This document shows positions 31,782 to 45,643 of a DNA stretch of 64,000 nucleotides, one piece after another. Each line of letters begins with the position of its first letter. Within the stretch, counting starts at the first letter, position 1. The position numbers and the translations under genes were made by a program. The notes under the pieces are model-generated. The model was not told the origin of the DNA, searched no databases, and was given only the letters and a program-made list of their open reading frames with translations. The stretch spans positions 1 to 64,000 of the forward strand of contig JANQRC010000043.1 in the NCBI GenBank assembly GCA_028284745.1, given 5' to 3'. Source of the DNA: Flavobacteriaceae bacterium. GTDB taxonomy: Bacteria > Bacteroidota > Bacteroidia > Flavobacteriales > Flavobacteriaceae.

Positions 31782-32710
31782 GAGCGATTGTTTTCAACAG
31801 TTCTTATAAAAATGTCATTCACACTAGGGATCAATTCTACAAAATGCGACACTTGCCCCCTATTGGTCAAAAATGAAAGTAAGTCATTAGGACCATGCCC
31901 ATTTTGTAAATGTATGTTGGTCTTCAGCTCGTTGCCCAGCGTTTTGAAATTGGCCTTGGAGAGTTGAAATTTTTCCTTCAACTCTTTTTCAAGCCGCTTG
32001 TTGTCCTCACTCTCGATGCCAACTTCATAGGTGTTGGTACGATATTGCCTCTTAACTTCTGAAAGTTTTCCTTCTAACAGTTTGTCGGATTTGTTGATCA
32101 ACGCGATATGGTCACAAAGCTCTTCAACAGACTCCATGCGATGCGTAGAGAAGATCACGGTAGCGCCTTGGTCCCTGAGGTGCAGGATCTCGTCTTTGAT
32201 GCGGTTGGCATTGATGGGGTCGAAACCACTAAAAGGTTCGTCGAAGATCAACAGCTTGGGCCTATGCAAGACCGTGACGACAAATTGTATCTTCTGTGCC
32301 ATTCCTTTAGAGAGTTCTTGGATCTTCTTGTTCCACCAATCACCGATCTCTAGCCTTTCAAACCAGTACCGGAGTTGTTTCCTTGCCTCAGACTTGCTGA
32401 GTCCTTTTAGCTGGGCCAGATAAAGTGCTTGCTCGCCTACTTTCATGCTCTTGTACAAACCTCGCTCTTCGGGCAGATATCCTATGTTTCTGACATGCTC
32501 TGGCTTTAGGGTCTCACCATCCAACAATACGCTTCCTGAGTCTGGATAGGTGATCTGATTTATGATACGGATAAACGTGGTCTTTCCTGCTCCGTTAGGC
32601 CCAAGAAGGCCATAGATACTACCCTCAGGAATATGTATCGAAACATTGTTCAACACTGTAAAATCGCCAAATCTTTTGGTGACATTCTCAGCCACCAGGA
32701 GGTCCCTCAT
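31778..32710 (-). CDS. ABC transporter ATPase (NatA-like, DUF4162 tail)
   Basis: The 310-residue protein has Walker A GPNGAGKTT at residues 38-46, signature LSKGMAQK, Walker B LLIFDEPFSGFDP and the H-loop FSTHRM. The C-terminal 90 residues match the DUF4162 extension of NatA-type ATPases. It energises the permease encoded next. Confidence 0.93.
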   Translation of the reverse strand: MRDLLVAENVTKRFGDFTVLNNVSIHIPEGSIYGLLGPNGAGKTTFIRIINQITYPDSGSVLLDGETLKPEHVRNIGYLPEERGLYKSMKVGEQALYLAQLKGLSKSEARKQLRYWFERLEIGDWWNKKIQELSKGMAQKIQFVVTVLHRPKLLIFDEPFSGFDPINANRIKDEILHLRDQGATVIFSTHRMESVEELCDHIALINKSDKLLEGKLSEVKRQYRTNTYEVGIESEDNKRLEKELKEKFQLSKANFKTLGNELKTNIHLQNGHGPNDLLSFLTNRGQVSHFVELIPSVNDIFIRTVENNRS

Positions 32711-36972: not shown

Positions 36973-38046
36973 ATGAAGAACCGTGTTTCGACCCTAATCC
37001 CAGTTAAAAAAGTTGCCAATTCTAGAATTGATCAGGTTGATTTTAACAACCTAACATTCGGTAGCGAGTTTACCGACCACATGTTTGTGTGTGACCATAA
37101 AGATGGTCAATGGCAATCGCCAAAGATCGTTCCTTATGGTGATATGAGCATTTCGCCCTCGGCGCGCGTGTTTCACTATGGGCAGGCTGTGTTTGAAGGT
37201 ATGAAGGCTTACAAAGATGATGAAGGGAGCGTATGGTTATTTAGACCCGATGAGAACTTCAAGCGCATCAATAGGTCATCGGTACGCATGGCAATCCCTG
37301 AGTTTCCCGAAGAATTTTTCTTTGAGGGAATGAAGACCTTGTTGAAGCTTGACAATGATTGGATCAAAAAAGGGGTCGGTAACACATTGTACATTCGTCC
37401 TGTGGTATTTGCCACCCAAGCGAGTGTTTTGGCTTCACCAGCCAATACATATCGTTTTATGATCATCTGTTCGCCTGCGCAAGCATATTATGGCGGTGAG
37501 GTTCGTGTGAAGATCGCCGAACATTACAGTCGTTCTGCAAGTGGTGGTTTTGGCTATGCCAAGGCTGCAGGGAATTATGCGGGCCAGTTCTATCCTACCG
37601 AACTGGCGAAACAGGAAGGCTTCAACCAAGTGATATGGACAGATGCCAAAGAACATGAATACATTGAGGAGGCAGGGACCATGAATGTATTCTTCAGAAT
37701 TGGTGATACCCTCATAACGGCTCCTACCAGCGATCGAATTTTAGATGGCGTAACGCGAAAGAGTGTCATTACAGTTGCCGAGGATATGGGGATTTCTGTA
37801 GAAGTACGTCCTGTAACCGTATCTGAAATTGTTGAAGCAGCCAGAGAAGGTTCGTTACTGGAGATCTTTGGTTCCGGAACCGCCGCCGTGATCAATCCGA
37901 TCGTTGGTTTCGGTTATAAAGGCGAACAGTTTGAGCTTCCGAAACTGGCTGATTCTTATGCTACGATGTTCAAAGAGAAGATCGTAAACATTCAGTACAA
38001 TCTTGCTGATGACCCCTATGGGTGGCGATATCCGGTTGGCAGTTAG
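36973..38046 (+). CDS. ilvE: Branched-chain amino acid aminotransferase
   Basis: The 357-residue fold IV PLP enzyme transfers amino groups to and from leucine, isoleucine and valine. It shows FHYGQAVFEGMKAY, RSSVRMAIP, the PLP lysine in GYAKAAGNYAGQF, and EEAGTMNVFF. Length matches type II BCATs. The longer frame begins with TTG at 36946. Confidence 0.95.
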   Translation: MKNRVSTLIPVKKVANSRIDQVDFNNLTFGSEFTDHMFVCDHKDGQWQSPKIVPYGDMSISPSARVFHYGQAVFEGMKAYKDDEGSVWLFRPDENFKRINRSSVRMAIPEFPEEFFFEGMKTLLKLDNDWIKKGVGNTLYIRPVVFATQASVLASPANTYRFMIICSPAQAYYGGEVRVKIAEHYSRSASGGFGYAKAAGNYAGQFYPTELAKQEGFNQVIWTDAKEHEYIEEAGTMNVFFRIGDTLITAPTSDRILDGVTRKSVITVAEDMGISVEVRPVTVSEIVEAAREGSLLEIFGSGTAAVINPIVGFGYKGEQFELPKLADSYATMFKEKIVNIQYNLADDPYGWRYPVGS

Positions 38047-38051
38047 CAGAA

Positions 38052-38438
38052 TTATCTTTTTAGGATGCCAGCAATATCTGGCTTGAAGTAATTAGGACCT
38101 TTCAATACCTTTCCATCTTCACGATAGATAGGTTTGCCATCTTCTCCCAGTTTGCTCATGTTGCTACGCTGAATCTCCGCGAACACCTCTTCGATCTTGT
38201 ATTGCATGCCATGCTCTAGAATAGTACCGCAGAGTATGTAGAGCATATCGCCCAATGCATCGGCTACTTCCTCAAGGTCTCCTTCGTTGGCTGCTTCGAG
38301 ATATTCTTCATTCTCTTCACGCATCAACTTGTAACGCAGCAGGTTCTTTGCCTCGCCCAATTGTGCTGTCGGCGCTTCTTTGATACCAAGACCAAAGGCT
38401 TCGTGGAATTCTCTAACGTATGCTAGTTTTTGTTTCAT
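38052..38438 (-). CDS. MazG-like nucleoside triphosphate pyrophosphohydrolase
   Basis: The 128-residue all-helical protein has the MazG pattern: EENEEYLEAANEGD then EEVADALGDMLYILCG, with the acidic residues (EExxE and ExxD) that bind magnesium. Such enzymes clear non-canonical nucleotides. The exact substrate is unknown. It converges with ilvE. Confidence 0.87.
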   Translation of the reverse strand: MKQKLAYVREFHEAFGLGIKEAPTAQLGEAKNLLRYKLMREENEEYLEAANEGDLEEVADALGDMLYILCGTILEHGMQYKIEEVFAEIQRSNMSKLGEDGKPIYREDGKVLKGPNYFKPDIAGILKR

Positions 38439-38665: not shown

Positions 38666-38829
38666 GCGGCTTTTTTGTCTCAACAGTATTTTTTCTTCCT
38701 CCTTTAACAAGAATTTTACGTAACTTCTTTTGCGTTAAAATCCCTAGGAATGGGGATGGTCTACATTGTTATAAATTCTTCAATTTGTTTTGAATTGCCA
38801 CACTGATAATCCTAATAACTCAAATTACA

Positions 38830-40326
38830 ATGCCTGAAGTCGAACTTCCAGAAAAACTCATTAATGTTGTCAATGGTATTGAATACTCATATACCCTTAA
38901 CAAGGACAAGATCTTGATAAGCAAGCCTGTTTATAACCAAGAGAGTGTCATAAGCATACTGTCAAAAAACGAAATATCAGAGATTGATGAAATAAGATCG
39001 ATTGGTGCGCAACACTTGATCACTCATATTGATATTGTCGGGAGATTTATGCACGACCCAAAAGCATATAGCCCCCTTGAGTATAAACTGGTCTTTACCA
39101 ATGACCTAGATGGCTCTGATAATATTTTTGAGAACTTCATTGTCCTTACCTTCGAGGAAGAACAGAATATAGCAGCGTTAATGGCACATTGCAAGTGCAA
39201 AGAAGAGGACATAAAGGTAGCAAGCGGAGGAGGGTTGTTTTTCTATCGGATCGAATACCCAGACTATCCTGAGGCCGAAGCTATGGGCCATAAGATTTGT
39301 AAAGATAATCCAGGATGGATCGTTGAATACTCCTTTTCCAAAATCATAACCACCACCGTAAATGCAGAGATCCCTAATAGTTCATCAACAATACCTGAAT
39401 TGTCTAACCAAGCCATGTTCGATGCCATTAAATTGAAGTTGCCAACTGTAGACCTCAATGGAAGAAAAAAAATAAGAATTGCACTGTTTGACACAGGCAC
39501 AGATAATGGGCATCCATATCTATGCAATAATGTTTTGGCAAAGGGGGTAGACTTAGTAGATGGAGACACCTATCCTGACCCTGGGCCTTTTTTTGTTGAT
39601 GGCCATGGCACAAAATGTGCAGGTCTCATCGCAGGAAATTATAAGGATTCTGTATTAGGGGCGGGCGTTTATTGCGATATTGTATCTTACCGTATGTTCT
39701 ATGCAGTCAAAGATGGTCAATCTACAAATAAGGTCATCGACGTTTTTACAATTATTGAAGCCTTTATAAAAGCAGGGTTCGAAGACACCTTTGATGTCAT
39801 CAACTGTTCTTGGGGCTATGGTAGCAATGTATACAAATGCATAGAGATGTTATTGAAAGCTGTCTGGAAATCAGGAAATAACGGAAAAGGCGTCGCGGTC
39901 ATCTTTGCAGCCGGGAACAATGGGGCCAAGGTCGACTTTCCTGCGAATTCAAGATATTGCATTACTGTGAGCGCAACCAACACTGACGGCAAACCTATTG
40001 TCAGGTCTACTGATAACGCATGGGGATCTAATTACGGCAATCAAGTAGATATCGGCGCTCCTGTCAACATCCTTAGGACTACAGCTGTGAGATATGCCCG
40101 CAGTAGCTCTAACATAGAATACGAATCAAAAAAATTTGGGAAGACATCAGCAGCAGCAGCAATTGTTAGTGGGTGTGTCGGATTGATCCTGACCTTAAAT
40201 CCCGACCTAACCCCGTGCGAGATCAAAGAGGTCTTGAAATCAAACGCAACACGTTTCATTCCTCAACCCAAAAACAACTATGGCACAGGAATGATAAATA
40301 TGCAACAAACACTATCCAGAATATAA
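38830..40326 (+). CDS. Subtilisin-like serine peptidase (S8) without signal peptide
   Basis: The 498-residue protein starts MPEVELPEKLINVVNG and has no signal peptide or membrane segment, so it should be cytosolic. Residues 1-205 form an unrecognised N-terminal region. The S8 domain follows, with catalytic Asp in IALFDTGTD, His in VDGHGTKCAGLIAG and Ser in GKTSAAAAIVSG, plus the oxyanion-region Asn in FAAGNNGA. The Ser motif is GKTSAAA instead of GTSMAAP. It heads a tight four-gene unit with an unknown protein, a histidine kinase and a response regulator. Confidence 0.87.
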   Translation: MPEVELPEKLINVVNGIEYSYTLNKDKILISKPVYNQESVISILSKNEISEIDEIRSIGAQHLITHIDIVGRFMHDPKAYSPLEYKLVFTNDLDGSDNIFENFIVLTFEEEQNIAALMAHCKCKEEDIKVASGGGLFFYRIEYPDYPEAEAMGHKICKDNPGWIVEYSFSKIITTTVNAEIPNSSSTIPELSNQAMFDAIKLKLPTVDLNGRKKIRIALFDTGTDNGHPYLCNNVLAKGVDLVDGDTYPDPGPFFVDGHGTKCAGLIAGNYKDSVLGAGVYCDIVSYRMFYAVKDGQSTNKVIDVFTIIEAFIKAGFEDTFDVINCSWGYGSNVYKCIEMLLKAVWKSGNNGKGVAVIFAAGNNGAKVDFPANSRYCITVSATNTDGKPIVRSTDNAWGSNYGNQVDIGAPVNILRTTAVRYARSSSNIEYESKKFGKTSAAAAIVSGCVGLILTLNPDLTPCEIKEVLKSNATRFIPQPKNNYGTGMINMQQTLSRI

Positions 40327-40347
40327 ACCAGACTAAGACTAAATATC

Positions 40348-41001
40348 ATGAAAGACCAGTTATTAAGAAACGTAGACCTGAGGGTCAATAAGTCTAACCA
40401 CCATCAGAGCCTGTACGCCTCTATGGCTTACAACACATTTTTCGGTATTTTTGGAAAATTAGAGATGATCAAAAAAGGGGGGAAAGACCACTTTTTAGAT
40501 ATTGAATTGAAACTGATCAATTACAAAGGAATTCTTGATGTGCAGTTCAAGAAAAATATCTTCACAAAGAACTACGCTTCCTTCGACATCCCAAAAGATG
40601 AGGATGGAAATCTCATCGAATCAACGCTGATCCTCAACATCAATGTTGGTGCGTACATCCCTGATGGTACTCAAAAAAAACTCAAGCTGACTACTTCTGA
40701 GATTGACCTTTCAGCCATTAAAAAGATAGACCTTTCGAAGATCGAACACCTTATCGTGAACCGTCACCTCATCAGTTTCTATGGCTATCCATGGGAGAAT
40801 CTTAAAAAGCGGATCGACAACAACCCTGCGGATTTGATTCCGATGAGCAGCAAAAATGGTGTCCACGATGAAGAATTCTTTTATAGAAATGGGCCAGACA
40901 ATGTCTTGTTACGAATTATTGGCGATCATGCATTAAAAAGAGAGGTACTGTTTGATAGTGGCACCTGTCATCAGAGTGTATCAATTAGTATAAAGTCATA
41001 A
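40348..41001 (+). CDS. Hypothetical protein in subtilase/two-component operon
   Basis: The 217-residue protein is not recognised. It has no signal peptide or membrane segment and looks mixed alpha/beta (LDIELKLINYKGILDVQF, LILNINVGAYIPDG, IEHLIVNRHLISFYGYPW). It starts 21 bases after the subtilase stop and ends 8 bases before the kinase start, so it is surely co-expressed. It could be a substrate, inhibitor or sensor partner of the protease; nothing in the sequence decides. Confidence 0.65.
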   Translation: MKDQLLRNVDLRVNKSNHHQSLYASMAYNTFFGIFGKLEMIKKGGKDHFLDIELKLINYKGILDVQFKKNIFTKNYASFDIPKDEDGNLIESTLILNINVGAYIPDGTQKKLKLTTSEIDLSAIKKIDLSKIEHLIVNRHLISFYGYPWENLKKRIDNNPADLIPMSSKNGVHDEEFFYRNGPDNVLLRIIGDHALKREVLFDSGTCHQSVSISIKS

Positions 41002-41009
41002 CATCTTCT

Positions 41010-42872
41010 TTGATTCGATATTTTTTACTTATAATAGTTCTTCTAGCAGGCTCATCGAGTGACAAGGTCTTTAGCCAAGAGATCACCGATGAGCTTGTCT
41101 CATTAGATTTTTGGAAGGCGGGGTCCAAACTCGAAAATATAAAGCACAAGACTTCCCATATCTATTGGAAAGCCCTCTTAAGTTTGACTGCCAATCGTGG
41201 CAATGCACGTAAGCAGGACAGTGTACTCTACCAAAAAGCAGCCAAGCAAAAGAGCTTGGAACTGCACCAAGACCTTTGGCAAATTACTGATGCTCTATAC
41301 CATTACTATTATAAAAATGACAATCCCAAACTATTGCAATTACTTAACAACGCCTTGTACACAGCAAGAGAAAAGAATGATGTCAATCTTCAAAAACTTT
41401 GCTTGATCCCTATATTGGAGTATTACTCAAAGAATTATTCACTGAATAGCAAACATTTCAATAAATATTTTGATCAACTAAAAAGCATCTCCAATTCCAT
41501 ACATGATCAAGCCCATCTGACCATATTGGAGAATCTTCGAGAAGGAAGAAGTGCTGAATGGGACCCCGCCTTATTCTACCAAACAGGATTGAATAATATT
41601 ACTTTCTATGAAAGCCACAGCCAACAACTTTCTAATGGCATGAAGGTTCAATTAGAGATGAACATTGCCTCCCATTACAGGGTGAATGAGCAACTAGATA
41701 GTGCCCTCTATTACTATAAGAAGATTCTAAAGTATCCCGAGAGACCATTCTTTGCAGAGTATAAATTCATTAGCTGTTTAGATATAGGAGCGATAGAAGT
41801 TCTAAAAAAGAACATTTTCTCTGCATCAAAATATTTTGATAGTTCACTCACCTATCTTTCTCAAAATGATAGTGTCAAAAAAATCATCGACTACTATCGC
41901 TTCAAATCTAATTATTTCTATGAACCCTTAGAAATTTATGATAGTGCCTACTTATTCACTGAAAAGGCCTTCTTGTTGAAAAGAAAACACGGATACGCAG
42001 AAAACAGCAGAAGGATCACTGAGCTTTTTGAAGAGCTCAATGTAGCCGAGAAAGAAAAACAGCTCCTCGAAGAGCAACAAAAGGCCAAACAAAGCCGAAA
42101 CCTGCTCATTGGCTCATTGGCCCTACTGCTGCTTGGCGCCACCATTGCCATCCTATTGCAAAAGAATACCTCCAAGAAGCGTGTTTTGGCCGAACAGCAA
42201 CGAGAGATCCAAAGGCAAAAGGTAGAGACACTTTTAAAAGAACAGGAATTGGCAAGCATCGATGCCATGATCGAAGGACAAGAGAAAGAACGGCAGCGCG
42301 TGGCCAACGAACTGCATGATGACCTGGGCAGCCTTATGGCCACCATAAAGCTGTATTTTGAAAATCTTAAAAAAGAAAAGAGTGAAGCCATTTTGATCAA
42401 GACCAATGACCTACTCGATGAAGCTTATCAAAAGATCCGTACCATGGCACATGCGAAGAACTCAGGTGTGATGGCCAGTCAGGGGTTGTTGCCAGCCGTT
42501 GAGAAATTGGCAGACAACCTCAGTAAGACAGGGGATCTAGACATTCAGGTGAATGAATACGGGATGGTCGACAGGTTAGAGAATTCTATCGAACTCACTA
42601 TCTTTAGAATTATCCAAGAACTTATGACCAATATCATAAGACATGCAGAGGCTACCGAAGTGATGATCCAATTCACACAGCATGAGAACACACTGAACAT
42701 CATGGTGGAGGACAACGGGAGAGGGTTTGACATCCAAGCTATGAAACCTGGAAAGAATGGCATGGGACTCTCGTCCATCGAAAAACGAATAGAGCATCTA
42801 GAAGGTTCCTTCACCGTAGATAGTATTCCAAAGAAAGGCACTTCCATAATCATAGATATTCCAATAACATGA
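41010..42872 (+). CDS. TPR-type sensor histidine kinase (HisKA_3/NarX class)
   Basis: The 620-residue protein has a signal peptide (MIRYFLLIIVLLAGSSSDKV), a helical TPR-like periplasmic region to about residue 365, and one membrane helix LLIGSLALLLLGATIAIL near residues 366-383. A coiled coil and the HisKA_3 domain follow, with the phospho-His in ANELHDDLGSLM. The HATPase domain shows EDNGRGFD and GMGLSSIEKRI. It starts with TTG at 41010. It overlaps the response regulator gene by four bases and is its obvious partner. Confidence 0.9.
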   Translation: MIRYFLLIIVLLAGSSSDKVFSQEITDELVSLDFWKAGSKLENIKHKTSHIYWKALLSLTANRGNARKQDSVLYQKAAKQKSLELHQDLWQITDALYHYYYKNDNPKLLQLLNNALYTAREKNDVNLQKLCLIPILEYYSKNYSLNSKHFNKYFDQLKSISNSIHDQAHLTILENLREGRSAEWDPALFYQTGLNNITFYESHSQQLSNGMKVQLEMNIASHYRVNEQLDSALYYYKKILKYPERPFFAEYKFISCLDIGAIEVLKKNIFSASKYFDSSLTYLSQNDSVKKIIDYYRFKSNYFYEPLEIYDSAYLFTEKAFLLKRKHGYAENSRRITELFEELNVAEKEKQLLEEQQKAKQSRNLLIGSLALLLLGATIAILLQKNTSKKRVLAEQQREIQRQKVETLLKEQELASIDAMIEGQEKERQRVANELHDDLGSLMATIKLYFENLKKEKSEAILIKTNDLLDEAYQKIRTMAHAKNSGVMASQGLLPAVEKLADNLSKTGDLDIQVNEYGMVDRLENSIELTIFRIIQELMTNIIRHAEATEVMIQFTQHENTLNIMVEDNGRGFDIQAMKPGKNGMGLSSIEKRIEHLEGSFTVDSIPKKGTSIIIDIPIT

Positions 42873-43483
42873 TCACCGTAGCCATTGCAGAAGACCATCA
42901 ATCACTCATAGACGGTATCGTTTCATTTGTTGAATTCGAGGACGACGTCAAAATTGTCGGACATGCCAACGACGGGCTTCGGTTAATGGAGATAATGGCC
43001 AAGAAACGCCCACAGGTGGTTATCTGCGACATCCGCATGCCAAAGCTAGATGGAATCGAAGCCACAAAACGCATAACTGCTGAGTATCCTGAGACAAAGG
43101 TGTTGGCATTCAGCATGTTTGATCAAGAAGAGGCCGTACGGCAGATGCTGATGGCTGGCGCCGTTGGGTATATACTAAAAAACTCTTCGCTTGAAACCGT
43201 TTTAGAGGCCATAAGAACCTTAGCCGATGGAAGAACCTATTTCGACAAGAAGATAAACTTGCCTTCAACAGAAAAGAACAAGTCCAAGACGTTGCTCTCG
43301 TCGCGCGAGCTGCAGATCCTAAAGCTTGTCGGACAAGGCATGACCTCGCATGAGATCGCTGCCAAGCTCTTTATCGGCAAGAGCACTGTAGACACACACC
43401 GCAAGAACATGATCAGAAAGTTAGATCTTAGCGGCAGTGGTGAGTTGATGCGGTATGCCATCGAAAGAAAATATGACTTTTAG
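42869..43483 (+). CDS. NarL/LuxR-type response regulator
   Basis: The 204-residue protein has a receiver domain with phospho-acceptor Asp54 (VICDIRMPKLDG) and a LuxR-type HTH (LSSRELQILKLVGQGMTSHE, STVDTHRKNM). It is phosphorylated by the kinase encoded just before (ATGA overlap) and should bind DNA as a dimer. The target may be the operon's own promoter. Confidence 0.93.
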   Translation: MITVAIAEDHQSLIDGIVSFVEFEDDVKIVGHANDGLRLMEIMAKKRPQVVICDIRMPKLDGIEATKRITAEYPETKVLAFSMFDQEEAVRQMLMAGAVGYILKNSSLETVLEAIRTLADGRTYFDKKINLPSTEKNKSKTLLSSRELQILKLVGQGMTSHEIAAKLFIGKSTVDTHRKNMIRKLDLSGSGELMRYAIERKYDF

Positions 43484-43559: not shown

Positions 43560-45587
43560 CTACAAAATGCCATACTCTTTGGCATAGGCCAACATCTGCG
43601 CTTCAAAACTTTCAGGCTGTGTTACCTTGATGGAAATGATCTCGCCATTGTCATCAGTCTCGGGGACCAGTATTGGATTCACAAAGCCGCTGTATGCTGC
43701 GCTTTTGAACTGCTTGTTTCTTTCTAGCACTTCTGCGTGAATGGCCTGGTCTACCTTTACACCATGACCTTCTACCAAAGCTTTTGCAGCTTCGTGATCG
43801 CCCTCCGATTTTATACGCTGTGTCTCGCCAAGCAGCTGACCAAACAACTCACGAAGCTTAGGGTAGTCATTAATGTTGTAATAGGTCTTTCCGTCGCGTG
43901 TCACTTTTTCGATCACCTTATCGGCTTTGCCCTTTTCAAAGGTCCAAGCGCTCACCCATTGACGGTTGCGCATGTGCGCCTCTTCGACCTCGTCGCCCAA
44001 GTTCAAACGGATGAGTTGCGTCATAAGTCCGTTGCGGATATAACCATCATATGCTGCCTTGCCCACAGCTTCCCAATCATCTACCAAACCCAATTCTTGC
44101 AACTTTGGGTCCATCAAGTAGTAAAGGCCAACAAGGTCTGCGCGACCTTCTTCCAATGTGGAAGCATAACTTTTCAAGGTTTCTTTTGGTGTGCCGACCC
44201 CAGGATTCAACTGCCCAGAAGCATGGCCGATCACTTCGTGCAAGGCCGTATGTAGCTTGTCGGCCAATTTACCATACTTTTCTTCGCGTTCGATCTCTTC
44301 ATCATCGTGGGCAAACTCCTTTAGGCGGCCACTGCCTCCTGCATTGTTATATGCGTTGATGATATTGCCTAATGAAACTGATTTGGACCCATGCTGCTGA
44401 CGGATCCAATTATTGTTAGGCAAATTCACGCCGATAGGTGTGCTGGGCGATGCATCACCTGCTTCGCCAGCTACATTGACTGTCTTGTATGACACGCCAA
44501 CTACATTCTTCTTCTTATGGTTCTCCATTAATGGTGCATTGTCTTCAAACCACTGGGCATTTTCAGAAAGCACTGCCATCTTTTTCGACATGTCAAAGTC
44601 TTTGATCTCTACAATGGTCTCATACGAACCACGATAGCCAACAGGGTCATTGTACACCTCGATGAAACCGTTGATGTAATCGATATTGCCAGCAGTGTTG
44701 GTCGCCCAAACAATGTTATAGTCGTCCCAAGTCTTCAGGCTACCTGTTTTGTAGTACTCGATAAGCAGGCCCAATTGCTTTGCTTGTGTTTCATCATGTG
44801 CTACGGTCTGTGCTTTTTCGAGCCAGTAGATGATCTTGTCTATGGCTTCACCATAAAGGCCACCGCTTTTCCAAGTCTTTTCTACAAGTTTGCCATTCTC
44901 CTTTACCAATGTGGAGTTCAGCCCCAATTCGATGGGCTTCTGCTTGTCGATCGCTTTGCCTTTTTCAGCATAAAAGGTGGCCACCTCGTCGGTCGTAATA
45001 TCAGGCCCGTAGAAATTTACTGCAGAGGCAAGCACATTGTCTACATCCTTAGAAAGATTCACCTTCTTAGCATCTTTGTCATCGAAGATGACCTCAAGGG
45101 CCTCCCCTTCTAGCGTTGTGTCTGTCTCTTTTAATAGGAATTGAAGATATTCCTTGGAAAAATCTGGCTTTATCTTGTCGTTAGAGTAATGATGGTGAAT
45201 CCCATTAGAGAACCATACGCGTTTCAGGTAGGTCTCAAAACTTTTCCAATCATCAGACTCCTTATCGCCTTGATACGTGGTGTAAACGTTCTCTAGAACC
45301 TTGCGGATCGTAAGATTGTGGCGATAGTTCTGATCCCACATGATGTCGCGCCCAGCAAGGCCTGCTTGCGTCAAATAATATGTCAGCTTTTGCTCTTTGA
45401 GGGTCAGATCGTCCCAGCCAGGGATCTGGTAGCGCAAGATGCGAAGGTCTGCAAACTGGTCTACCACATGGTTAAACTCCTTTTTCTCTTCAACTGCAGC
45501 TTCGGGAGTTGCCTGCTTTTGGGATTCTGCACACGAGAACATTACTATAGCTATCGTGAGCATTCCCAATATGTGTTTGTACTTCAT
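43560..45587 (-). CDS. M49-type dipeptidyl peptidase III, lipoprotein
   Basis: The protein (675 residues from ATG 45587) has a lipoprotein signal (MKYKHILGMLTIAIVMFSC) and the M49 zinc motifs HEVIGH and EEGRAD. Dipeptidyl peptidase III removes dipeptides from the N-terminus of short peptides; here it would act in the periplasm. A full promoter lies just upstream and overlaps the longer TTG-started frame (45614), which supports the ATG. Confidence 0.9.
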   Translation of the reverse strand: MKYKHILGMLTIAIVMFSCAESQKQATPEAAVEEKKEFNHVVDQFADLRILRYQIPGWDDLTLKEQKLTYYLTQAGLAGRDIMWDQNYRHNLTIRKVLENVYTTYQGDKESDDWKSFETYLKRVWFSNGIHHHYSNDKIKPDFSKEYLQFLLKETDTTLEGEALEVIFDDKDAKKVNLSKDVDNVLASAVNFYGPDITTDEVATFYAEKGKAIDKQKPIELGLNSTLVKENGKLVEKTWKSGGLYGEAIDKIIYWLEKAQTVAHDETQAKQLGLLIEYYKTGSLKTWDDYNIVWATNTAGNIDYINGFIEVYNDPVGYRGSYETIVEIKDFDMSKKMAVLSENAQWFEDNAPLMENHKKKNVVGVSYKTVNVAGEAGDASPSTPIGVNLPNNNWIRQQHGSKSVSLGNIINAYNNAGGSGRLKEFAHDDEEIEREEKYGKLADKLHTALHEVIGHASGQLNPGVGTPKETLKSYASTLEEGRADLVGLYYLMDPKLQELGLVDDWEAVGKAAYDGYIRNGLMTQLIRLNLGDEVEEAHMRNRQWVSAWTFEKGKADKVIEKVTRDGKTYYNINDYPKLRELFGQLLGETQRIKSEGDHEAAKALVEGHGVKVDQAIHAEVLERNKQFKSAAYSGFVNPILVPETDDNGEIISIKVTQPESFEAQMLAYAKEYGIL

Positions 45588-45611
45588 TGGTAATTTAGGT
45601 TTTGATTCATA

Positions 45612-45643
45612 CAAAGTTACGGGGATGCCAAACGTTAAACAAA
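45612..45643 (-). promoter_or_regulatory. Promoter of the M49 peptidase gene
   Basis: On the minus strand TTTG (45640-45643), 20 bases, then TAACTTTG (45612-45619). It fits the consensus fully and lies 25 bases before the ATG. Confidence 0.6.

Follow-up and report, generated by a model that had tools for sequence, protein, structure and literature searches.

The agr locus of Staphylococcus follows a protease, precursor, sensor kinase and regulator logic, with allelic groups and autoinduction; its membrane protease, AgrB, comes from a single family, AgrD is a short peptide and AgrA is a regulator of the LytTR type. In comQXPA of Bacillus, a processing enzyme, a precursor, a histidine kinase and a LuxR-type regulator are encoded in this order, variability falls from ComX through ComQ and ComP to ComA, with ComP being variable in its N-terminal part (PMC4008528). 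We analysed a 64,000-nucleotide stretch of a Flavobacteriaceae genome (GenBank assembly GCA_028284745.1, contig JANQRC010000043.1, positions 1 to 64,000; hereafter, the window), which carries a unit with the comQXPA gene order. Four genes on the forward strand, at 38830-40326 (498 aa), 40348-41001 (217 aa), 41010-42872 (620 aa) and 42869-43483 (204 aa), encode a subtilase, a small protein of unnamed family (hereafter, the partner), a histidine kinase and a response regulator. In marine flavobacteria the locus has the look of a rapidly diversifying recognition system.

The likeness to the described systems is one of layout. The window unit shares the agr logic of protease, precursor, sensor kinase and regulator, and differs from agr in the one-family membrane protease AgrB, the short AgrD and the LytTR-type AgrA. 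The processing slot of comQXPA holds a prenyl transferase, the precursor is a short peptide and the sensor has 8-10 membrane helices, whereas units of the window type carry proteases in that slot, their partners are 120-280 aa long and the window sensor is a predicted soluble extracytoplasmic domain. No homology to ComQ/ComX or AgrB/AgrD was found, the partner having no Pfam or NCBIfam match and the protease belonging to S8.

The original prediction had read the four genes as one transcript; the open reading frames were confirmed, and the spacings of 21 and 8 bases and the 4-base kinase-regulator overlap are as it gave them, which supports a transcript-like unit. The overlap is kept in nearly all relatives, and the kinase gene begins with TTG (41010) directly after the partner gene, as it also does in a second Flavobacteriaceae genome (G072, locus L010). 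The gene order is not due to chance, because partner, kinase and regulator recur in that order across dozens of genomes. The features of the unit are as follows.

38739-38757, forward strand: inverted repeat AATCCCTAGGAATGGGGAT, probable operator for the response regulator, located 73-91 bases ahead of the subtilase ATG
38830-40326, forward strand: subtilase (S8), 498 aa, first gene of the putative exchangeable cassette (PF00082, 2.3e-37)
38830-39450, forward strand: subtilase N-terminus (about residues 1-207), perhaps propeptide-like, outside every family model searched
40348-41001, forward strand: partner of 217 residues, founding member of an unnamed family and most constant part of the cassette, no database match
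40966-40998, forward strand: C-terminal tail of the partner, Cys207-HQSVSISIKS, with a Cys near the end in 36 of 37 family members
41010-42095, forward strand: sensor half of the kinase (residues 1-362), signal peptide and extracytoplasmic, probably TPR-like domain, part of the cassette; the only part of the kinase with distance correlation to the partner
42096-42158, forward strand: transmembrane segment of the kinase (residues 363-383), probable junction of cassette and constant part, from the sequence and from the switch of correlation from partner to regulator
42159-42872, forward strand: constant kinase half with coiled coil, HisKA_3 and HATPase_c (PF07730, PF02518), 53-71% identity among relatives
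42869-43483, forward strand: NarL/LuxR-type response regulator (PF00072, 2.1e-25; PF00196, 4.9e-16)

Variable and constant parts of the unit

Related loci were gathered by scanning a genome collection with two kinase peptides, a non-exhaustive scan that gave at least 76 units with a recognisable partner gene. Among partner-family units the regulator and the kinase half averaged 0.62 and 0.58 in identity, versus 0.20 and 0.21 for sensor half and partner, so that a hypervariable precursor position and sensor half are combined with a conserved kinase half and regulator, as in comQXPA. Partner distances correlated with sensor distances at a rho of 0.59 (partial 0.59; 0 of 2000 permutations as high), versus 0.08 for the kinase half and 0.04 for the regulator; these correlations use related sequences, and the permutation controls label assignment, not shared ancestry of the cassettes. 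When followed along the kinase, correlation to the partner was flat at 0.4-0.5 over the sensor and lowest at the 5' end, nearest the partner gene. At the membrane segment it dropped sharply to about 0.1 and the correlation with the regulator climbed to 0.45-0.59, a profile that disfavours simple linkage decay as the source of the partner-sensor correlation. In 52 of 55 loci, the partner belonged to the cluster found at the locus with the nearest sensor, versus 36 of 55 when the nearest kinase half or regulator was used. For the 38 of 76 units with a mazG-like neighbour, mazG identity tracked the regulator (0.61) and the kinase half (0.56), not the partner (0.04).

A swap can be seen directly in two Aquimarina genomes, A. 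amphilecti (L061) with a subtilase cassette and A. latercula (L066) with a papain-like one. Their mazG, ilvE, kinase half and regulator are 99%, 97%, 97% and 95% identical, versus 30% for the sensor and 25% for the partner inside the cassette, where the protease folds differ. The DNA of the pair aligns at 86% until 63 bases before the first cassette gene, nothing in between is alignable, and the alignment resumes at the membrane segment of the kinase and runs for 10.8 kb. Because it resumes there, the cassette takes in the sensor half of a gene whose remainder stays. The inverted repeat of this pair, with half-sites 69 and 58 bases upstream, lies at or just beyond the cassette edge.

From these sequence comparisons, the constant core, made of the cytoplasmic kinase half and the LuxR-type regulator, is very probably inherited with its neighbourhood, and the cassette, which contains an optional protease, the small partner and the kinase sensor half, exchanged as one unit. 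The limits of the exchange would, with the same high probability, be the conserved operator on one side and the kinase membrane segment on the other. At three loci (L045, L049 and L160), two kinases of the family stand in tandem at one site, as though two cassettes had been stacked.

The partner family and the ligand-sensor reading

The partner had been predicted to belong to no known family, and this was upheld: it had no match in Pfam, NCBIfam, PADLOC, PHROGs, PDB sequences or plasmid records. A single-sequence pattern scan of genome contigs with the partner also gave no match; relatives were found through profile and kinase searches. The first of them, in G072, is 29% identical and precedes a homologous kinase and regulator without a protease. 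A five-member profile search then detected family members in 27 of the 300 Flavobacteriaceae genomes searched, with the partner gene directly upstream of the kinase in 27 of 27 (one kinase runs off its contig). Homologues found mostly without subtilase and kinase had been named as grounds for rejecting the predicted association; the subtilase is indeed mostly absent, and the kinase accompanies the partner throughout. One candidate match, in G439, was rejected since the open reading frame resembles an unrelated prenyltransferase-type protein and has no such kinase beside it.

Conserved features of the family include an N-terminal Q..Y.SQ.Y.T segment, the NYKG and FD.EFYYRDG motifs and the C-terminal Cys tail. 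A Cys placed 8-13 residues before the C-terminal end is shared by 36 of the 37 family members, versus 0 of 76 kinases or regulators, and the residues after it are mostly hydrophobic or basic. Among partners with unrelated sequences in this gene position, 24 of 36 end in G-x-I/V-hydrophobic, against a background of 4.6%. A tail common to otherwise unrelated partners suggests one common handler or receptor.

The match of a variable enzyme, partner and sensor half, a constant kinase half and LuxR-type regulator, and an operator at the front to the comQXPA pattern is why we favour a ligand-sensor locus, at a confidence just short of even. The cognate ligand or co-sensor of each sensor domain would be the product of the neighbouring gene, the partner, either as such or as a derivative like its conserved C-terminal tail. 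Binding would activate the kinase and regulator, and the regulator, acting on the inverted repeat, would drive the operon in a positive feedback. A co-encoded protease, if present, would process the partner or serve as an induced output. Signal peptides, judged by hydropathy rather than by a trained predictor, were assigned to 13 of 76 partners, which would place these partners beside the sensor; of the 18 units with an adjacent protease, none has such a partner (P = 0.03). The account as a whole, in which polymorphic recognition rests on a locus of pherotype design, is likewise tentative, with nearly even prospects. Its most specific form is the more doubtful one: a pherotype-like self/non-self recognition in Gram-negative Bacteroidota, with allelic partner (ligand)-sensor cassettes, a constant kinase-regulator pair, processing proteases of four folds and recognition of the Cys tail.

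Several observations weigh against the ligand-sensor reading. Most partners, that of the window included, have no signal peptide (the hydropathy test found no hydrophobic N-terminal segment in the window partner), and the sensor has a predicted position outside the membrane; with a cytosolic partner and an extracytoplasmic sensor, a route of export or release is missing. Known precursors of peptide pheromones are far smaller than the partner. The precursors of comQXPA and agr are short peptides with a most variable C-terminus; unlike that of ComX, the partner tail is no more variable than the remainder, its windows being as conserved as the mean and containing an invariant Cys. An adjacent protease is present in only 18 of 76 loci. 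Binding has no structural support: the partner was modelled with moderate confidence (pLDDT 65), and fold searches with this model against PDB and viral structures gave no match with E < 0.1. Finally, the same correlation could arise in the absence of contact if the cassette genes are inherited together as one recombining block.

This last point is the core of an alternative that we consider quite unlikely, in which partner and sensor do not touch but have each adapted to one and the same outside input, and the partner and protease are output genes travelling with a stress sensor. Cassette exchange alone would account for the correlation, and cytosolic partners would not meet an extracytoplasmic sensor. 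However, the correlation within one homologous family is graded and uniform along the sensor, and the tail shared by unrelated kinds of partner (24 of 36 non-family members versus 4.6%) again suggests a common receptor or handler.

The protease slot and the defence question

The first gene of the window unit belongs to peptidase family S8, judged by its domain score and catalytic triad. The Peptidase_S8 domain (PF00082) spans residues 213-487 (2.3e-37; 129 bits versus a curated cut-off of 21.8), with Asp221 (39490-39492), His259 (39604-39606), Ser440 (40147-40149) and the oxyanion Asn363. The complete Asp/His/Ser set and the variant serine motif that had been predicted are real; the motif reads G-K-T-S-A-A-A, with Lys in place of the Gly of GTSMA. 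The protein lacks a signal peptide, as had been claimed, the hydropathy test finding no hydrophobic N-terminal segment. Its N-terminus looked by eye like the tandem propeptide of other S8 proteases, and this candidate was dropped as hhalign against their N-termini gave no significant match; the single-sequence structure model reached a pLDDT of only 32. Membership in a well-described intracellular housekeeping family was not borne out, as family searches turned up only the PADLOC 'subtilase' model and NCBIfam matches below cut-off. No close relative of the window subtilase was detected among 246 genomes of the order. Carriage by phages found little backing, as viral contigs gave no relative of P0001 and phage records one distant S8 only.

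The slot varies widely among the loci. A protease lies adjacent and upstream of the partner in 18 of 76 units (subtilase 2, papain-like 5, trypsin-like 9, caspase-like 2), the classes being assigned partly below Pfam cut-offs and then by motif, namely H/GDSG (trypsin), WCWA with weak C70 (papain-like) and SGHG/DCC (L161); the other 58 loci have no adjacent protease. The two subtilase-bearing units are those of the window and A. amphilecti. On the tree of kinase half and regulator, the protease classes are spread about as randomly as after shuffling (15 changes versus a shuffled mean of 15.6). The subtilase had been taken as the heart of the unit, which is unsupported, the slot holding four unrelated folds or nothing. 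An ordinary regulated proteolysis operon, in which a two-component system and a small dedicated inhibitor or chaperone accompany a subtilase, would fit the gene order alone and is very improbable. The partner family also occurs without an adjacent protease or with three other protease folds, so the partner is not a subtilase-specific inhibitor; such an operon would require it to bind S8, C70-like, S1 and C14 proteases alike.

Among described conflict systems, VMAP/iSTAND ternary and NucA-trypsin systems (PMC7159879) and the nuclease-protease pairs and Canu (PMC12799240) likewise place swappable trypsin-, caspase- or subtilisin-type peptidases beside an uncharacterised partner. These systems are driven by NTPases or nucleases, unlike the window unit, and Kaur et al. 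(PMC7159879) report no histidine kinase among vWA-associated effectors in the systems they cover. The IetAS defence system (PADLOC) shares a subtilase catalytic domain with the window unit, which has a two-component core instead of an adjoining IetA ATPase.

A conflict or defence module is the main alternative, one that we rate as unlikely though credible. The sensor would report envelope attack, the regulator would induce the operon and the protease would activate the partner as a pro-effector, by analogy with proteases acting on pro-nucleases and gasdermins, and an arms race would cause the diversification. Swapping among trypsin-, caspase-, subtilase- and papain-like proteases is typical of conflict systems (PMC7159879; PMC12799240). 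Several of the proteases match the PADLOC 'subtilase', IetS or 'caspase' models (that of A. amphilecti matches IetS at 8e-14), and the protease and most partners are cytosolic. However, 58 of 76 loci have no adjacent protease, and no NTPase, nuclease or known effector domain is present. For gasdermin, the partner gave neither a Pfam nor a fold match, the fold search resting on the moderate-confidence model. Neither partner nor kinase has a PADLOC match, and the unit as a whole matched no known anti-phage system. Co-variation of the partner with an extracytoplasmic sensor would be needless for an intracellular pro-effector. The flanks are housekeeping genes and not a defence island, a location that had been named for checking, and the chromosomal position is fixed in 38 of 76 loci.

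Full-text literature searches found neither the locus nor the partner family described, and no such protein- or peptide-ligand recognition locus in Bacteroidota. Recruitment of proteases of four folds to one genetic slot bridges two-component signalling and the protease swapping of bacterial immunity. Kin recognition and signalling specificity are directly testable here, because natural ligand-sensor pairs, an exact in-kinase swap junction and a conserved operator would be on offer.

Three further loci were noted. A divergent caspase-domain gene (L155:7176-8003; PF00656, 1e-15) lies immediately upstream of a unit of partner, kinase and regulator that occupies the shared chromosomal site. In Marinirhabdus gelatinilytica (L156 / L088), two additional small genes (192 and 149 aa) precede the partner, one with a WCW-type motif; these genes may represent an enzyme of a new or split type filling the protease slot. 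On a Mesorhizobium huakuii plasmid (L012, 2180-9901), a subtilase related to that of the window stands beside a caspase-family gene and two hypothetical genes, and this group sits downstream of an acyl-homoserine-lactone synthase and a LuxR regulator.

Kinase domains, chromosomal site and probable operator

HisKA_3, HATPase_c, Response_reg and GerE domains are all present, which identifies a HisKA_3 (NarX/DesK type) kinase and a NarL/LuxR regulator, as had been predicted. The TPR label attached to this kinase had no backing from Pfam for the window copy, with no TPR repeats detected there or in the kinases of L031, L032, L038, L061 and L066. The related kinase of L047 has TPR_12 (2e-14), so that the window sensor is probably TPR-like.

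The order mnmC-like gene, ilvE, mazG-like gene, unit and M49 peptidase is often seen at the site, which is marked in the window by three genes.

36991-38046, forward strand: branched-chain aminotransferase (ilvE-like; PF01063), left site marker, adjoining the unit in 32 loci
38052-38438, reverse strand: MazG/PRA-PH-like pyrophosphohydrolase (PF01503), left site marker, adjoining 38 of 76 units
43560-45614, reverse strand: M49 dipeptidyl peptidase (PF03571), right site marker, adjoining 25 units

Inverted repeats precede 36 of 76 units, typically 50-100 bases from the first cassette gene, whereas 0.06 were expected from shuffles. They are of the types ATACC..GGGTAT and, in the clade of the window, ATCCC..GGGGAT, and the type tracks the kinase/regulator clade (8:1 versus 4:26, P = 6e-5). 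The window repeat has no exact match in its 2.8 Mb genome other than the copy at 38739-38757. Such patterns in the DNA suggest that the regulator binds the repeat and that the unit is probably regulated through it. The signal control that had been proposed for the unit gains support from this probable operator just upstream. An operator copy with one mismatch lies on contig C8 of G000 (32264-32282; L186:1265-1283), shortly upstream of a gene for a secreted protein of ~384 aa without a Pfam family, which is a possible second target of the regulator.

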